From: Kocuria soli
Lineage (GTDB): Bacteria > Actinomycetota > Actinomycetes > Actinomycetales > Micrococcaceae
Assembly (NCBI RefSeq): GCF_003797835.1
Contig: NZ_RKMF01000012.1
Location: 1 to 64,000, forward strand
Reading direction: 5' to 3'
Length of the DNA stretch: 64,000 nucleotides
The notes below the pieces were generated by a model, which worked only from the letters and a program-made list of their open reading frames with translations, was not told the origin of the DNA and did not search any database. Both the position numbers and the translations under genes were made by a program. Shown here piece after piece: positions 46,087 through 50,800 of this stretch (positions within the stretch are counted from its first letter, which is position 1; each line of letters starts with the position of its first letter).

Positions 46087-46138
46087 CCGGCGCGCCGGCA
46101 CGCGCGCAGCGACGGACGCAACGTGAAGGAGAACGGTG

Positions 46139-46510
46139 ATGTTGTGGGGTTATGACGGCTGGTTCTGGGCCAGTGTGGTCCTGGGCGCGCTGTCGTTCCT
46201 GGTCTGCGCCGTCCAGGCGCTGCGCGGCAAGGCCCCGGGCGACCTCACACAGGGTTCGGTGCTGCTCCTGGAAGCGTTCCTGGTGGTCTACCTGGTGGGC
46301 TCGATCGTGCTGTTGTTCGTGGGGCCCAAGGCCTCCGGGAGCGTGGTCGAGTACTGGGGCTACCTGCTGACCGCGTTGGTGGTCCCGGCGGGGACGTTCA
46401 TCTGGTCGCTGGTCGAACGCTCCAGTTGGTCCAACTGGATCCTGGCCGCCACCGGGCCCACGATCATCGTGATGGTCTACCGCATGAACTTCATCTGGTA
46501 CTACCAGTAG
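46139..46510 (+). CDS. Small conserved membrane protein; 3' end is the attachment site of an element
   Basis: The 123-residue protein has four transmembrane helices and a C terminus NFIWYYQ. Its function is unknown; similar short proteins accompany truB-ribF in related genomes. AAGGAG lies before the ATG. The last 22 coding bases form one copy of the direct repeat that bounds the inserted element, so the gene stayed intact after integration. In the ancestral state it would have been followed within about 12 bp by the gene now at 50261. Confidence 0.8.
   Translation: MLWGYDGWFWASVVLGALSFLVCAVQALRGKAPGDLTQGSVLLLEAFLVVYLVGSIVLLFVGPKASGSVVEYWGYLLTALVVPAGTFIWSLVERSSWSNWILAATGPTIIVMVYRMNFIWYYQ
46488..46509. 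repeat. Attachment-site repeat, left copy
   Basis: acttcatctgg-T-actaccagta, the 3' end of the upstream membrane gene. It matches the right copy at 21 of 22 positions. Confidence 0.85.
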
Positions 46511-46595
46511 GTGTTAGCACATGATCGCCAGGTGTCAACTTCCGCGTAATCACAGGGTTTATGTGGTTGCTGGTGGTTGACCGATTTAGCCCTCT

Positions 46596-46625
46596 TGCGG
46601 ACTTGTTGCGGACTCTCTGCGGACC
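46596..46625. repeat. Left arm-type repeats, three copies of TGCGGACT/C
   Basis: tgcggact at 46596-46603 and 46607-46614, and tgcggacc at 46618-46625, spaced exactly 11 bp, i.e. about one helical turn. Short phased repeats inside an att site are typical arm-binding sites of tyrosine integrases. Confidence 0.7.
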
Positions 46626-46652
46626 GGCTTGCCCTCCTGGCACACTGAACGC

Positions 46653-46937
46653 ATGACAACGCGTACCAAGCCCCTTGCCGACTCCGAGCCCGAGCGGACG
46701 TTCGACATGCTGCAGCACATCGGAAACAACGGGTGGGCCAGAAATAGCCAGAGCGAGAGCCTGTGCCCGGTCTACCTGCAGACACTTGCCGACCAAGGTG
46801 TGAGCATCCAAGACACCCTCAACGAGATGCGCAGTCGTGGGTTCTCAGGTCACGCGCTCCGGCAGCTGCAACGGTGGGAGAACAAGCGCGTGTACGGAGT
46901 ATTCGACCCAAAGCCCCACCAGCGCCGGAGGGTCTGA
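46653..46937 (+). CDS. Hypothetical small protein of the element
   Basis: This 94-residue polar protein is not recognised. It starts MTTRTKPLADSEPERTFDML and has a basic C terminus, VYGVFDPKPHQRRRV. Its middle part, GVSIQDTLNEMRSRGFSGHALRQLQRW, could form helices and is reminiscent of small DNA-binding proteins, but no motif is certain. Its place next to the left attachment site would suit an excisionase or regulator; that is only a positional guess. Confidence 0.45.
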   Translation: MTTRTKPLADSEPERTFDMLQHIGNNGWARNSQSESLCPVYLQTLADQGVSIQDTLNEMRSRGFSGHALRQLQRWENKRVYGVFDPKPHQRRRV

Positions 46938-47172
46938 CTTCTGGCGAGGAAGGCCCCGGCGTCTCGCGACCCGGCGGGGTCCGACTGCGGAGTACACACT
47001 CACCTCAAACACCAACGGACTGCCCTAGGTGCTAGGTCAACAGTGCCTAAACAACGAATGCAAGGACTGAGAACTGGCGCGGCGACGGCCTCGCATGTGT
47101 TGTTGCTAGATGCATCATTCCGGTGTTCTCGGAATGCCACATACTGTCGGTGACTCCGTCTAGGCTCCTACC

Positions 47173-47889
47173 ATGTCGAGCACCCAGCGCAGCAGCCGCC
47201 CGCTACACCTTCCAGCAGGTACGCGCACGTCAACCTTATTCATGGACGAGAGCGGCTCCAAAGGATCTGGAGGAAATTTCTTCGTTCTGGCAGCCATCAA
47301 AACTGGGGACCCAGACGCCCTGTCGCGAAACATGAAGTCAATACGCGACGAATTCAGATTTCATAAGGAAGAGTTTAAGTTCAACGCGGTTAGCAAGAAC
47401 ACCTTTGGAGCTTATAAGGCGATTATTGACATGCTCGAAGCCTCCGGGGCTCAGATCGGTGCGTCCATCATCGACAAGGATGTCCATGACCCATTCAATG
47501 GCCGCGACCAATGGGAAGGGCATGCGTGGATTTCAGCCGCCCTCATCAAGGGGTTAGCAACCAGGAATGAGCTGTTGACCGTGTTGTGTGATGGCATATC
47601 AGTCCCGAAAGGCATTTCCTACGGTAACGAGGTGCAGCGCAAAGTGAATGGCAGTTTCAGAAACACCCGGCTTGCATCCGTAGTCAGTCTCGACTCATGC
47701 ACTTGCGATGGTCTCCAACTCGCCGACATCGTAGCTGGTGCGATCCACCACAGCCGGCGCGGAACCAGCGTCGACAATTTCAAGGCGCAACTGAGCCGCT
47801 ATGTACGGCGAACCTTCGATCTAGACAACTTCAATGACCAGCGATCGTCCAGAGTAAATATCAGGACGATCCTGGCACCTCAGGTGTGA
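47173..47889 (+). CDS. DUF3800-domain protein
   Basis: This 238-residue protein matches the DUF3800 pattern: an early acidic motif FMDESGSKGSGG (about 23-34), a middle acidic motif LCDGIS (about 138) and LQLADIVAGAI (about 178-188). These acidic motifs suggest an RNase-H-like, metal-dependent fold. DUF3800 genes are frequent on prophages and defence islands, with no settled function. Codon use is visibly more A/T-rich than in the surrounding core genes, a sign of transfer. No strong RBS precedes the ATG. Confidence 0.82.
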   Translation: MSSTQRSSRPLHLPAGTRTSTLFMDESGSKGSGGNFFVLAAIKTGDPDALSRNMKSIRDEFRFHKEEFKFNAVSKNTFGAYKAIIDMLEASGAQIGASIIDKDVHDPFNGRDQWEGHAWISAALIKGLATRNELLTVLCDGISVPKGISYGNEVQRKVNGSFRNTRLASVVSLDSCTCDGLQLADIVAGAIHHSRRGTSVDNFKAQLSRYVRRTFDLDNFNDQRSSRVNIRTILAPQV

Positions 47890-48213
47890 CGGCCACCCCG
47901 GGGATCTCCTCTTGCTGAGGGCCGAGGTTCGGTGCATACTAGAAGCCAAGTGGTGCCCTAGCTTCGCGCTTACAGCTCCACTTCCTGGCCCTAGCTTCGC
48001 GCTTCCAGCCAGGTATAGCTAGTTCATCGTCTAGCGCCCACAGATGACTTCGCTGCGCCCCCGAAACCTTTGAACAGGTTCGGGGGCGCAGCCCCTTCGA
48101 CGTTGCTTCCGCGACAGGCTCATAGCCAGGTGTCGTGGTGTGATCCTAGGATGGGTGCGCTGGTCGCCATGGACATGCCCGCTCCGGATAACTTCGCTTG
48201 CCAGCTCTCGCGT
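47890..48213. other. Non-coding stretch of the element with direct repeats and a hairpin
   Basis: It contains two exact 16-bp direct repeats, ccctagcttcgcgctt, at 47956-47971 and 47989-48004 (33-bp period). A perfect 14-bp stem follows at 48052-48065/48079-48092 with additional inner pairing aacct/aggtt. No open frame is convincing. Confidence 0.6.
48052..48092 (+). terminator. Stem-loop downstream of the DUF3800 gene
   Basis: gctgcgcccccgaa pairs exactly with ttcgggggcgcagc; the tail is ccccttcg. It probably ends the DUF3800 transcript. Confidence 0.6.
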
Positions 48214-48684
48214 TCAGCGGTCGCGGTAGTCGTCCACGGCCCGCAGGCTCAACGTGACGTGTCGGACTTGATCGCGTTTCCAAGGCACCGGTCTACTGAG
48301 TCGGTCGCACTGAAGAGTCCCAGACATGACTTTCTCACTATCCTTCTGGGCGTCCTGGCTCCGCTGCCTGGAAGCGAGAACATCCTCCGCTGCTGCCAAC
48401 CCCTGCGTCCTCGACCGAAGTAGCACTACGTGCAGACCTGCCAGCGACAGCATGAGCATCACCCACAGGCCAGCTTGAACAAACGATGTGGAGCCGGGGG
48501 CTGCGACCGTCAAGATGCCCACGAATACGGCGATACTGAGGCCAGCGAGTGTCATCATTCCCTGCGTTGCGTGGAGTTCGCCGCGGCGTACTGCGACGCG
48601 CTCTTGTAATTCACGGATACTCGTCTCAGGTTCAAGGCGTGCGCGTTCAATCGCGTAGACACTTTTCTTGTTCTTCCTAGTCAT
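48214..48684 (-). CDS. Hypothetical two-helix membrane protein of the element
   Basis: The 156-residue protein has a basic, helical N terminus (ARLEPETSIRELQERVAVRR). Two transmembrane helices follow at about 43-62 and 69-90, then a polar C-terminal region with a coiled-coil flavour. Not recognised. It is transcribed opposite to the rest of the element. The RBS is absent or poor, so expression is uncertain. A role such as immunity or membrane sensing cannot be argued from sequence. Confidence 0.5.
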   Translation of the reverse strand: MTRKNKKSVYAIERARLEPETSIRELQERVAVRRGELHATQGMMTLAGLSIAVFVGILTVAAPGSTSFVQAGLWVMLMLSLAGLHVVLLRSRTQGLAAAEDVLASRQRSQDAQKDSEKVMSGTLQCDRLSRPVPWKRDQVRHVTLSLRAVDDYRDR

Positions 48685-48713
48685 GTGGGTATCTAACCGC
48701 TCAAGTTCTCGCC

Positions 48714-49118
48714 ATGCCAGTGAGCGGCGCGGCAGTGCCCACCACGATTCAGAAGGCTGAGACGGCTCTCAGTGATGCCCAACAGGCAGTCGAGACCTGG
48801 GAAGGGCAAGCCCGAGACGCCCAGCAGCGGATAGCGCAGCTTGAGGCGGACGGCGGGGCCGCGATCCTCGCTGCGCAGTCCGCCAGCGACATCGCTGCTC
48901 AGATCAACACCGCCACGATTGAGGCCAACGCACTCGAATCGGCAGCGGCGGAAGCTCGCAAGCAAGTCACTGTGAAGGCCCGAGAGTTGCTTGGACTCTT
49001 TGCCGATGATGCCGAGAAGCGAGCCAGTTCGGCCCGTGACGCTGCACTCGCCCACGAGCAGGACGCCGTCGCTGACTTGGACAAGAGCATGCTCGCGGAA
49101 ATCGAGCGTGGTAAGTAG
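48714..49118 (+). CDS. Coiled-coil protein directly upstream of the integrase gene
   Basis: The 134-residue protein is almost entirely Ala/Glu/Gln-rich helix with heptad-like spacing (IQKAETALSDAQQAVETWEG, then DIAAQINTATIEANALESAA). Its stop shares one base with the GTG of the integrase gene, suggesting translational coupling. It is not recognised. Small coiled-coil genes preceding integrases are seen in other actinobacterial integrated elements, but no function is known. Confidence 0.6.
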   Translation: MPVSGAAVPTTIQKAETALSDAQQAVETWEGQARDAQQRIAQLEADGGAAILAAQSASDIAAQINTATIEANALESAAAEARKQVTVKARELLGLFADDAEKRASSARDAALAHEQDAVADLDKSMLAEIERGK

Positions 49119-50154
49119 TGGCCTCCATCAAGAAGCGTCCGAATGGCTCCTGGCGGGCACGGTACAGGGACCAGGATGGCAAAGAACACGCCAAGCACTC
49201 CCAGCGGAAAATTGACGTTCAACGGTGGCTCGATGGCATCGTCGTGGATACCGCGACCGGCCGCTATGTTGACCCGGCAAACGACGAACTCACGCTCCGT
49301 ACCTATTACCAGGGGTACAGGGCGTGGCAACTTTGGTCCACCGGACAACGGCCGCCGTCGATCAAGCCGTGTACTCAACCACCTTCCTGGATGTGCCATT
49401 CGGCCGACTCCCGGTGTCCCACGTCGAACAATGGGTCAGGGAGCAGTCCGAGACGCTGGCACCCTCGACGGTGCGTGTGCGGCTCACACAGGTGCGTGGG
49501 GTGCTCCGTGGCGCGGTCGCTGACCGGAAACTGCGAGAGGACATCACCGCCGGGGTGAAACCACCGAAGGCGCCGGAAACAACACACCATGACGATCCTC
49601 ACGGCGGGAGAGGTTGCCGCTCTGCTGGTGGCTATCGAACCGCCCTATGCCCCGATATTCGCCTTGTGCGCCTACGCCGGACTCCGAATCTCGGAGGCGT
49701 GCGCCGTCCAGGTGGACGACCTCGACCTAAAGGCAATGACCCTGCACGTTCAGCGGCAGGTGGGGGATCGGAGTTATCGGCACCCAAGGCGGAATCCGAA
49801 CGAGTGGTGTACCTCCCGCCGGCCCTGGTGAACATGCTCCGCGAGCACATCGAGACGTACGGGGTAGAACGTGACCTGTTCTGGGCCGCTGGGCGGAAGC
49901 TGATGACGGGCAGCACGGCGGACTTCCGGTGGAGGCAAGCGCGGCAACGGGCCGGGGTTGAGTGCAAGATCCACGACCTCAGATACTTCTACGCCTCGGG
50001 GTTGATCGCGGCCGGGTGTGATGTGGTGACCGTGCAGCGGGCTCTCGGACACTCGTCAGCCACGGTCACGTTGAACTACTACGCACACCTGTGGCCGTCC
50101 GCGGAGGACAAGACGAGGGAGGCTGCGGCTACCCTGATGCAGGTCGCTTCTTGA
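49118..50154 (+). pseudogene. Tyrosine recombinase/integrase, disrupted by frameshifts
   Basis: Three frames must be joined to recover one phage-type integrase. The N-terminal AP2-like arm-binding domain (KKRPNGSWRARYRDQDGKEH) lies in the frame starting at GTG 49118. The core-binding domain is in a second frame from about 49340. Part of the catalytic domain (GLRISEACAVQVDDL, with the first Arg) is in a third frame from about 49589. The rest, with HDLR, LGHSS and the Tyr in LNYYAHL, returns to the second frame after a G5 run near 49764. All catalytic residues survive, so the inactivation seems recent, or at least one shift is a sequencing error. Confidence 0.85.
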
Positions 50155-50160
50155 ACCTCC

Positions 50161-50179
50161 TGCGGGCTATCTGCGGACT
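50161..50179. repeat. Right arm-type repeats
   Basis: tgcgggct (50161-50168) and tgcggact (50172-50179), again 11 bp apart, match the repeats inside the left end of the element. Confidence 0.65.
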
Positions 50180-50227
50180 CAGGGGCGTCATTGACCTTTC
50201 TGAGAAGGGATAACGCGCCAGGTGGTG

Positions 50228-50249
50228 ACTTCATCTGGCACTACCAGTA
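50228..50249. repeat. Attachment-site repeat, right copy
   Basis: acttcatctgg-C-actaccagta, one base different from the left copy. It is followed by aggacgtacgt, which serves as the ribosome binding region of the next gene. Confidence 0.85.
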
Positions 50250-50260
50250 AGGACGTACGT

Positions 50261-50800
50261 ATGAGGCAAGACGCCACCACTCCGCCAGAGGCGACGGAAC
50301 CCCGTGACCGCACCGACGGCGTGCTCCAGCGCCGGTTCGGTCCCAAGGGCGACGACGGCGCGCGGCGCCCCGACGCCAAGAGCACCGGATTCGGGCGGGT
50401 CATCATTGCGATCTACGGGATCTTCGCCCTGTCCGCCGGGGTGCGTTCGGCCTACCAGATCGCCATGCAGTTCGGTGTGGCACCTCTGGCCTATCTGCTC
50501 TCCCTGTTCTCCGCGGTGGTCTACGTCCTGGCCGCCGTTGCCCTGACCAGACGTGGAGCCGCCTGGCACCGGGTGGCTTCCGCGGCCGTCGTCGTCGAAC
50601 TGGCGGGCGTGCTGGGGATCGGGCTCTGGACGTACCTGGCGCCGGACCTGTTCGCGGACGAGACGGTCTGGTCGCACTTCGGTCAGGGGTACGGCTTCAT
50701 CCCGCTGGTCCTGCCCGTCGTCGGGCTCCTCTGGCTGTGGCGCACCCGCCCGAACCGGGAGCCTGCCGTGCTGCACCCGGAAGACAAGGAACACGCATGA
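50261..50800 (+). CDS. Membrane protein of unknown function
   Basis: The 179-residue protein has a polar, Arg/Asp/Thr-rich N terminus of about 60 residues and four transmembrane helices. ARRPDAKSTGFGRVIIAIYGIF (split) and the W-containing loops resemble conserved actinobacterial membrane proteins of the truB-ribF interval. The start is ATG 50261 with aagga upstream. Before integration of the element it probably formed an operon with the gene at 46139. Its stop overlaps the next start by four bases. Confidence 0.75.
   Translation: MRQDATTPPEATEPRDRTDGVLQRRFGPKGDDGARRPDAKSTGFGRVIIAIYGIFALSAGVRSAYQIAMQFGVAPLAYLLSLFSAVVYVLAAVALTRRGAAWHRVASAAVVVELAGVLGIGLWTYLAPDLFADETVWSHFGQGYGFIPLVLPVVGLLWLWRTRPNREPAVLHPEDKEHA

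Follow-up and report, generated by a model that had tools for sequence, protein, structure and literature searches.

A decayed integrative element in Kocuria soli retains an intact DUF3800 gene and a structured candidate RNA that may form an RNA-neutralised nuclease module

A close functional precedent for the locus described here is AbiF_Cd of Clostridioides difficile, a toxic protein neutralised by RCd22, an RNA of about 132 nt with two abiF motifs (PMC12373285). DUF3800 proteins, for their part, have been modelled with an RNase H fold that shows a catalytic rearrangement and have been linked to putative non-coding RNAs (PMC10910872), and they are also carried in some class 2 CRISPR loci (PMC12669027). 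Candidate satellites that bear a capsid gene have been described in mycobacteria, where phiRv1/phiRv2 represent the type (PMC10654092).

The window analysed in this study is a stretch of 64,000 nucleotides from Kocuria soli. Positions 46488-50249 form a 3.74-kb element bounded by 22-bp direct repeats (46488-46509 and 50228-50249) which, as a preliminary description had noted, differ by one mismatch (21 of 22 identical). The left repeat makes up the final codons and stop of a membrane-protein gene, while the right repeat ends 11 bp ahead of the next host gene. At the same site G006, a Kocuria sp. MAG (isolate S5R_Sa_28), has another element, which is different in kind, about 8.3 kb long and with core repeat TTCATCTGGTACTACCA. 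The features outside the RNA region are as follows.

46136-46510, forward strand: host membrane-protein gene (124 aa), its 3' end the integration target; conserved in 27 of 27 genus genomes.
46488-46509, forward strand: left attachment repeat (attL core), 21/22 against 50228-50249; core TTCATCTGGTACTACCA, also that of the G006 element.
46596-46625, forward strand: arm-type repeats, three TGCGGACY 11 bp apart; the G006 element has a matching set of three at this end.
46653-46937, forward strand: open reading frame (94 aa) without significant family match.
47173-47889, forward strand: intact DUF3800 gene (238 aa), predicted RNase H-fold nuclease (PF12686, PDC-M04A, acidic residues).
48214-48684, reverse strand: open reading frame (156 aa) with two hydrophobic stretches; no match in families or in the phage collection.
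48714-49118, forward strand: open reading frame (134 aa) of coiled-coil-like composition, overlapping the integrase start; no convincing match.
49118-50154, forward strand: tyrosine integrase pseudogene with three frameshifts (Phage_integrase domain; frame switches against an intact homologue).
50161-50179, forward strand: two arm-type repeats, TGCGGGCT and TGCGGACT, 11 bp apart; the G006 element has a matching pair at this end too.
50228-50249, forward strand: right attachment repeat (attR core), adjoining the next host gene, which starts at 50261.

This segment was once mobile by means of its integrase and entered the 3' end of the membrane-protein gene, recreating the gene end. A search of 27 genomes of the genus recovered the membrane gene from every one, and among relatives overall it was present in 98 of 119. 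In 25 of the 27 the site is empty, with the homologue of the 50261 gene directly after the membrane gene, and the remaining two are filled by the Kocuria soli and G006 elements. These two have only the att/integrase module in common, that is, integrase type, core site and arm repeats, and the likeness of the arm repeats (both have three TGCGGACY at the left end and a pair of similar ones at the right) suggests that one integrase type serves both. The only close relative of the integrase in a scan of genome contigs was that of the G006 element itself; the membrane target gene was absent from the 14 regions read beside more distant integrase relatives, and no tRNA was found near the element.

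The tyrosine recombinase gene reported earlier at the right end does encode a Phage_integrase domain. To align it with an intact homologue (57% identity) the frame has to be changed three times, in the order 1-3-1-3, near 49340, 49580 and 49775, and it is therefore a pseudogene. With its integrase broken by these three frameshifts, the element is a decayed member of the integrase-mediated integrative elements and has lost its mobility. The preliminary reading of a decayed integrative element at a protein-gene 3' end is thus borne out by the empty sites, the arm-type repeats common with G006 and the frameshifted integrase, and the empty sites and other cargo that it proposed looking for in relatives both exist. 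Its further suggestion of an insertion hotspot is weakly favoured by the one second element at the same core, but no further one occurs among the 27 genomes. The satellite-like character that it proposed found no backing in this element. Only the DUF3800 gene and the integrase have recognisable domains among the open reading frames of the element, in which family searches and a phage-collection search found no capsid, packaging or replication genes. The G006 element encodes an integrase, a cI-like repressor, an xis-like HTH protein, an AAA ATPase, WhiB and an HK97 capsid, and is similar in gene content to the phiRv1/phiRv2-like candidate satellites (PMC10654092), from which the Kocuria soli element differs in having no capsid or replication gene. 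As an element it is real but ordinary, and the DUF3800-RNA module that it retains is the part worth following.

The GC content over the DUF3800 gene is 0.52-0.53 compared with mostly 0.64-0.72 beyond the element, in line with the lower value noticed previously. The protein matched Pfam family PF12686 (E 6e-13; 50.1 bits, cut-off 21) as well as the PADLOC candidate defence family PDC-M04A (E 3.5e-13), and the acidic residues D25, E26, E67, D101, D140, D174 and D185, invariant across this DUF3800 subfamily, are all intact. Since the AlphaFold model of the protein, made with three sequences, was poor (pLDDT 51), the assignment of a nuclease fold draws on the published work on the DUF3800 family. 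Foldseek gave hints at most, namely an RNase HII match that was weak (E 0.09) and a match to a viral DUF3800 protein (E 0.02), and a PDB profile search with the protein returned nothing credible. There was also a match to PADLOC DUF3800_VII, which we take to be linked to the type VII retron; resemblance to such a retron was rejected, as no reverse transcriptase was seen in the gene set of the element.

Close relatives of the DUF3800 gene are rare, occurring in three of 197 family genomes (Kocuria soli included) and a few times in the order, class and phylum samples; plasmids yielded no DUF3800 gene. The phages with a relative are the Gordonia phages Suerte and Powerball and the Mycobacterium phage Dori; the gene stands a few genes away from the integrase and, in Powerball, directly after the annotated immunity repressor. 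An IMG/VR prophage has the gene order tmRNA, integrase, DUF3800, and the copy in genome G893 lies near a tRNA-Thr. No integrase match was found within the 20 kb read around the copies in G709, G158 and G373. The earlier suggestion of a possible defence-type gene is made plausible by the PADLOC candidate family and by the position of these relatives near integrases in temperate phages.

The region downstream of the DUF3800 gene contains the following features.

47912-47940, forward strand: promoter-like pair TTGCTG-17-CATACT ahead of the RNA (8/12 consensus bases, under the scan threshold).
47950-48092, forward strand: candidate non-coding RNA of about 143 nt (tandem repeats, fold, covariation, covariance model match).
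47950-47981 and 47983-48014, forward strand: RNA units 1 and 2, bulged hairpins.
48018-48035, forward strand: third stem-loop.
48039-48045, forward strand: CACAGAT tail.
48052-48092, forward strand: terminator-type hairpin.

Near-identical 22-nt copies, starting at 47955 and 47988 and so 33 nt apart, follow the DUF3800 stop codon; these repeats and the RNA containing them had been missed in the preliminary description. A dispersed genome repeat was ruled out, the whole genome having two copies only. Upstream of DUF3800, the region 46938-47172 folded no better than shuffles. Related RNAs beside DUF3800 genes of this subfamily, in Gordonia and Mycobacterium phages, the prophage at the tmRNA and other Actinobacteria, bring the number of loci to nine (Kocuria soli, Suerte, L096, G709, G893, G373, Dori, Powerball and G158), and in the first six of these the tandem repeats exceeded all 200 dinucleotide shuffles. 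The diverged RNA of G158 was recognised by eye and folding, its repeat test being reached by 6 of 200 shuffles. Units are spaced 32-35 nt apart and each folds into an outer stem of up to seven pairs, a 2-nt bulge, an inner stem of GAGC/GCUC type, a loop usually of 5 nt, a 3-nt bulge and the outer 3' arm. When the whole RNA was folded without guidance, most of the nine loci gave the two hairpins, the third stem-loop and the terminal hairpin, although the minimum-energy fold pairs unit 1 differently in the Kocuria soli and Suerte RNAs. A CACANAY heptamer follows the third stem-loop in seven RNAs, and the third stem-loop alone beat shuffles in some RNAs only.

Of the 112 outer-stem pairs in 16 units 101 are standard, a count that averaged 69 and never rose above 89 in 100,000 reassignments; swapping outer arms between unit 1 and unit 2 of the same RNA gave 61 pairs and sliding the arms 36-52. 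Two-sided changes affect 11 of 22 pairs in the two-unit alignment (shuffle mean 5.9). These results are to be read in the light of unit boundaries set by eye ahead of the test and of sequences related by ancestry. Model R2, built without the Kocuria soli RNA, recovered that RNA with 50.4 bits (E 1e-8; next best 11.3). In the model searches the RNAs of G373, where the inner stem and loop differ, and of G158 were missed. Matches in G709 and in 49 genomes of the genus of G893 were confined to the DUF3800-linked copy, and 120 family genomes gave a match in Kocuria soli and, weakly, one apparently single hairpin without DUF3800. No tandem-repeat RNA was found beside 20 DUF3800 genes of other subfamilies, L127 being borderline (17/22, GC-rich flank). 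In a scan of viral contigs with an 18-base core, matches lacking DUF3800 had far lower scores and were put down to single hairpins or to chance; a 16-base core gave four matches. Rfam models run at permissive thresholds found no DUF3800 RNA in the whole window and none at the related RNA loci, although in the positive control they recovered DUF3800-XI and, under the cut-off, DUF3800-IV beside two DUF3800 genes of other subfamilies. The RNA family is therefore absent from Rfam 15 and is of the DUF3800-associated kind. It belongs to a broader class of DUF3800-linked structured RNAs, with a covarying structure kept beside DUF3800 genes.

The pairing of the DUF3800 gene with the RNA of about 143 nt is the best-preserved part of the cargo of this formerly mobile element and has, in our judgement and by analogy with described systems, roughly an even chance of being an RNA-neutralised RNase H-fold toxin or abortive-infection module. 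The DUF3800 protein would bind the repeated hairpin unit, and in the resting cell the RNA would keep the nuclease inactive. Were the supply of RNA to stop on phage infection or loss of the locus, the freed nuclease would cut nucleic acid and block growth or phage production, as with AbiF/RCd22 and ToxN/ToxI; temperate phages and the element may carry the module to exclude rivals or for their own retention. The location of DUF3800-RNA pairs next to phage integrases argues for such a module. Counted against it were the downstream position of the RNA, the small number of loci (nine only), the poor protein model and the weak promoter-like pair.

The main rival, which we consider unlikely, is that the RNA is no antitoxin and serves the DUF3800 nuclease as active cofactor or guide, the two forming a ribonucleoprotein for the recognition or processing of nucleic acid. 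DUF3800 proteins do occur with some CRISPR effectors, and it has been suggested that they take part there in interference or in crRNA biogenesis or degradation (PMC10910872; PMC12669027), and the loop and bulges of the RNA are conserved while its stems vary. Each RNA contains, however, two near-identical motif copies, and a variable stretch at a fixed position, such as a guide would need, is absent.

It is less probable still that the RNA is a cis-acting regulator, or a 3' processing or termination structure, of the DUF3800 message, as might be supposed from the seven of nine loci in which it lies right after the stop codon on the same strand, with a terminator-type hairpin at its end. In Dori and Powerball the motif occupies the equivalent gap on the opposite strand behind its own upstream promoter-like pair, so that the RNA is not merely a DUF3800 3' UTR, and a terminator has no need of two covarying copies of a bulged hairpin. 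Promoter-like pairs similarly placed also precede the units of the related RNAs, the Kocuria soli pair being a weak one, and the RNA is probably transcribed separately from the DUF3800 gene. That the whole element is decaying passenger DNA and the module functionless in Kocuria soli, as the thrice-broken integrase and the broken DUF3800 genes of G373 and G136 might suggest, is improbable given that, next to a decayed integrase, the DUF3800 frame and acidic residues are intact and the RNA conforms to the consensus fold.

Taking the RNA-neutralised nuclease as the preferred reading, we would tentatively propose, at somewhat short of even chances, a new RNA-protein antiviral or addiction system in which a DUF3800 RNase H-fold nuclease is placed under a two-hairpin RNA and circulates in actinobacterial phages and integrative elements. 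DUF3800 proteins and small RNAs recur together in bacteria, also near some CRISPR effectors, and if true the proposal would suggest a function for other DUF3800-associated RNAs as well, none having been found described in the literature searched. The module, with its intact gene, strongly covarying RNA and relatives in Mycobacterium and Gordonia phages that are grown in the laboratory, is compact (about 0.9 kb), and its size, its phage-borne relatives and the AbiF/RCd22 precedent make it directly testable. Reading a remnant element for RNA genes, and not for open reading frames alone, can alter the view of its cargo.

Like the DUF3800-associated RNAs in Rfam (RF02975, DUF3800-XI; RF02963, DUF3800-IV), the Kocuria soli RNA is a small structured RNA adjoining a DUF3800 gene, and a bulged hairpin is also seen in DUF3800-XI. 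It differs from them in its two tandem units, its 2-nt and 3-nt bulges, its third stem-loop and terminal hairpin, and in adjoining a different DUF3800 subfamily. As in ToxIN-type (type III) toxin-antitoxin systems, a candidate nuclease is combined with a repeated RNA, here of two units; the ToxIN protein family is another, and the DUF3800 RNA has bulged hairpins with no pseudoknot demonstrated. As that RNA lies behind the gene, or in Dori and Powerball on the other strand, rather than upstream and co-transcribed, the pair was not classed as type III. AbiF_Cd is an Abi_2/AbiD/F protein rather than a DUF3800 protein, and RCd22 lies upstream of abiF and is partly co-transcribed with it, whereas the Kocuria soli RNA lies downstream; toxicity and neutralisation have been demonstrated for AbiF_Cd and are proposed by analogy for the DUF3800 pair. 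The two systems are nevertheless alike in a phage-borne protein accompanied by an RNA with a short motif in two copies, a promoter-like site before it and a terminator after it (PMC12373285).

A short way 5' of the start of the DUF3800 gene in the window, a 7-bp inverted repeat (CATTCCG...CGGAATG, 47117-47137) was observed, possibly an operator. Another DUF3800 gene of this genome, belonging to a different subfamily, sits on a small contig (G000:C31:1032-1667), and no tandem-hairpin RNA was found at this second gene. Elsewhere amongst Actinobacteria, the Rfam RNA DUF3800-XI was located on the minus strand next to one DUF3800 gene (L136:2111-2159), and DUF3800-IV, with a score under threshold, also on the minus strand, next to another (L127:2272-2369).

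At the G373 locus (L086 1303-2120), the DUF3800 gene is frameshifted, yet the two 26-nt RNA repeats remain exactly identical, as if the break were recent or the RNA were outlasting the protein.

A distinct element occupies the window's integration site in the Kocuria sp. MAG S5R_Sa_28 (G006):

L032:6459-14735, about 8.3 kb, G006 element

Past its right end, and ahead of the conserved host gene that comes next, there is an additional 242-aa gene (L032:5520-6248, minus strand) with a signal-like N-terminus, which has no counterpart in the window. The element itself encodes an HK97 capsid, an AAA ATPase, WhiB, and xis-like and cI-like proteins, and is a candidate capsid-bearing satellite of the kind represented by phiRv1 and phiRv2 of mycobacteria.
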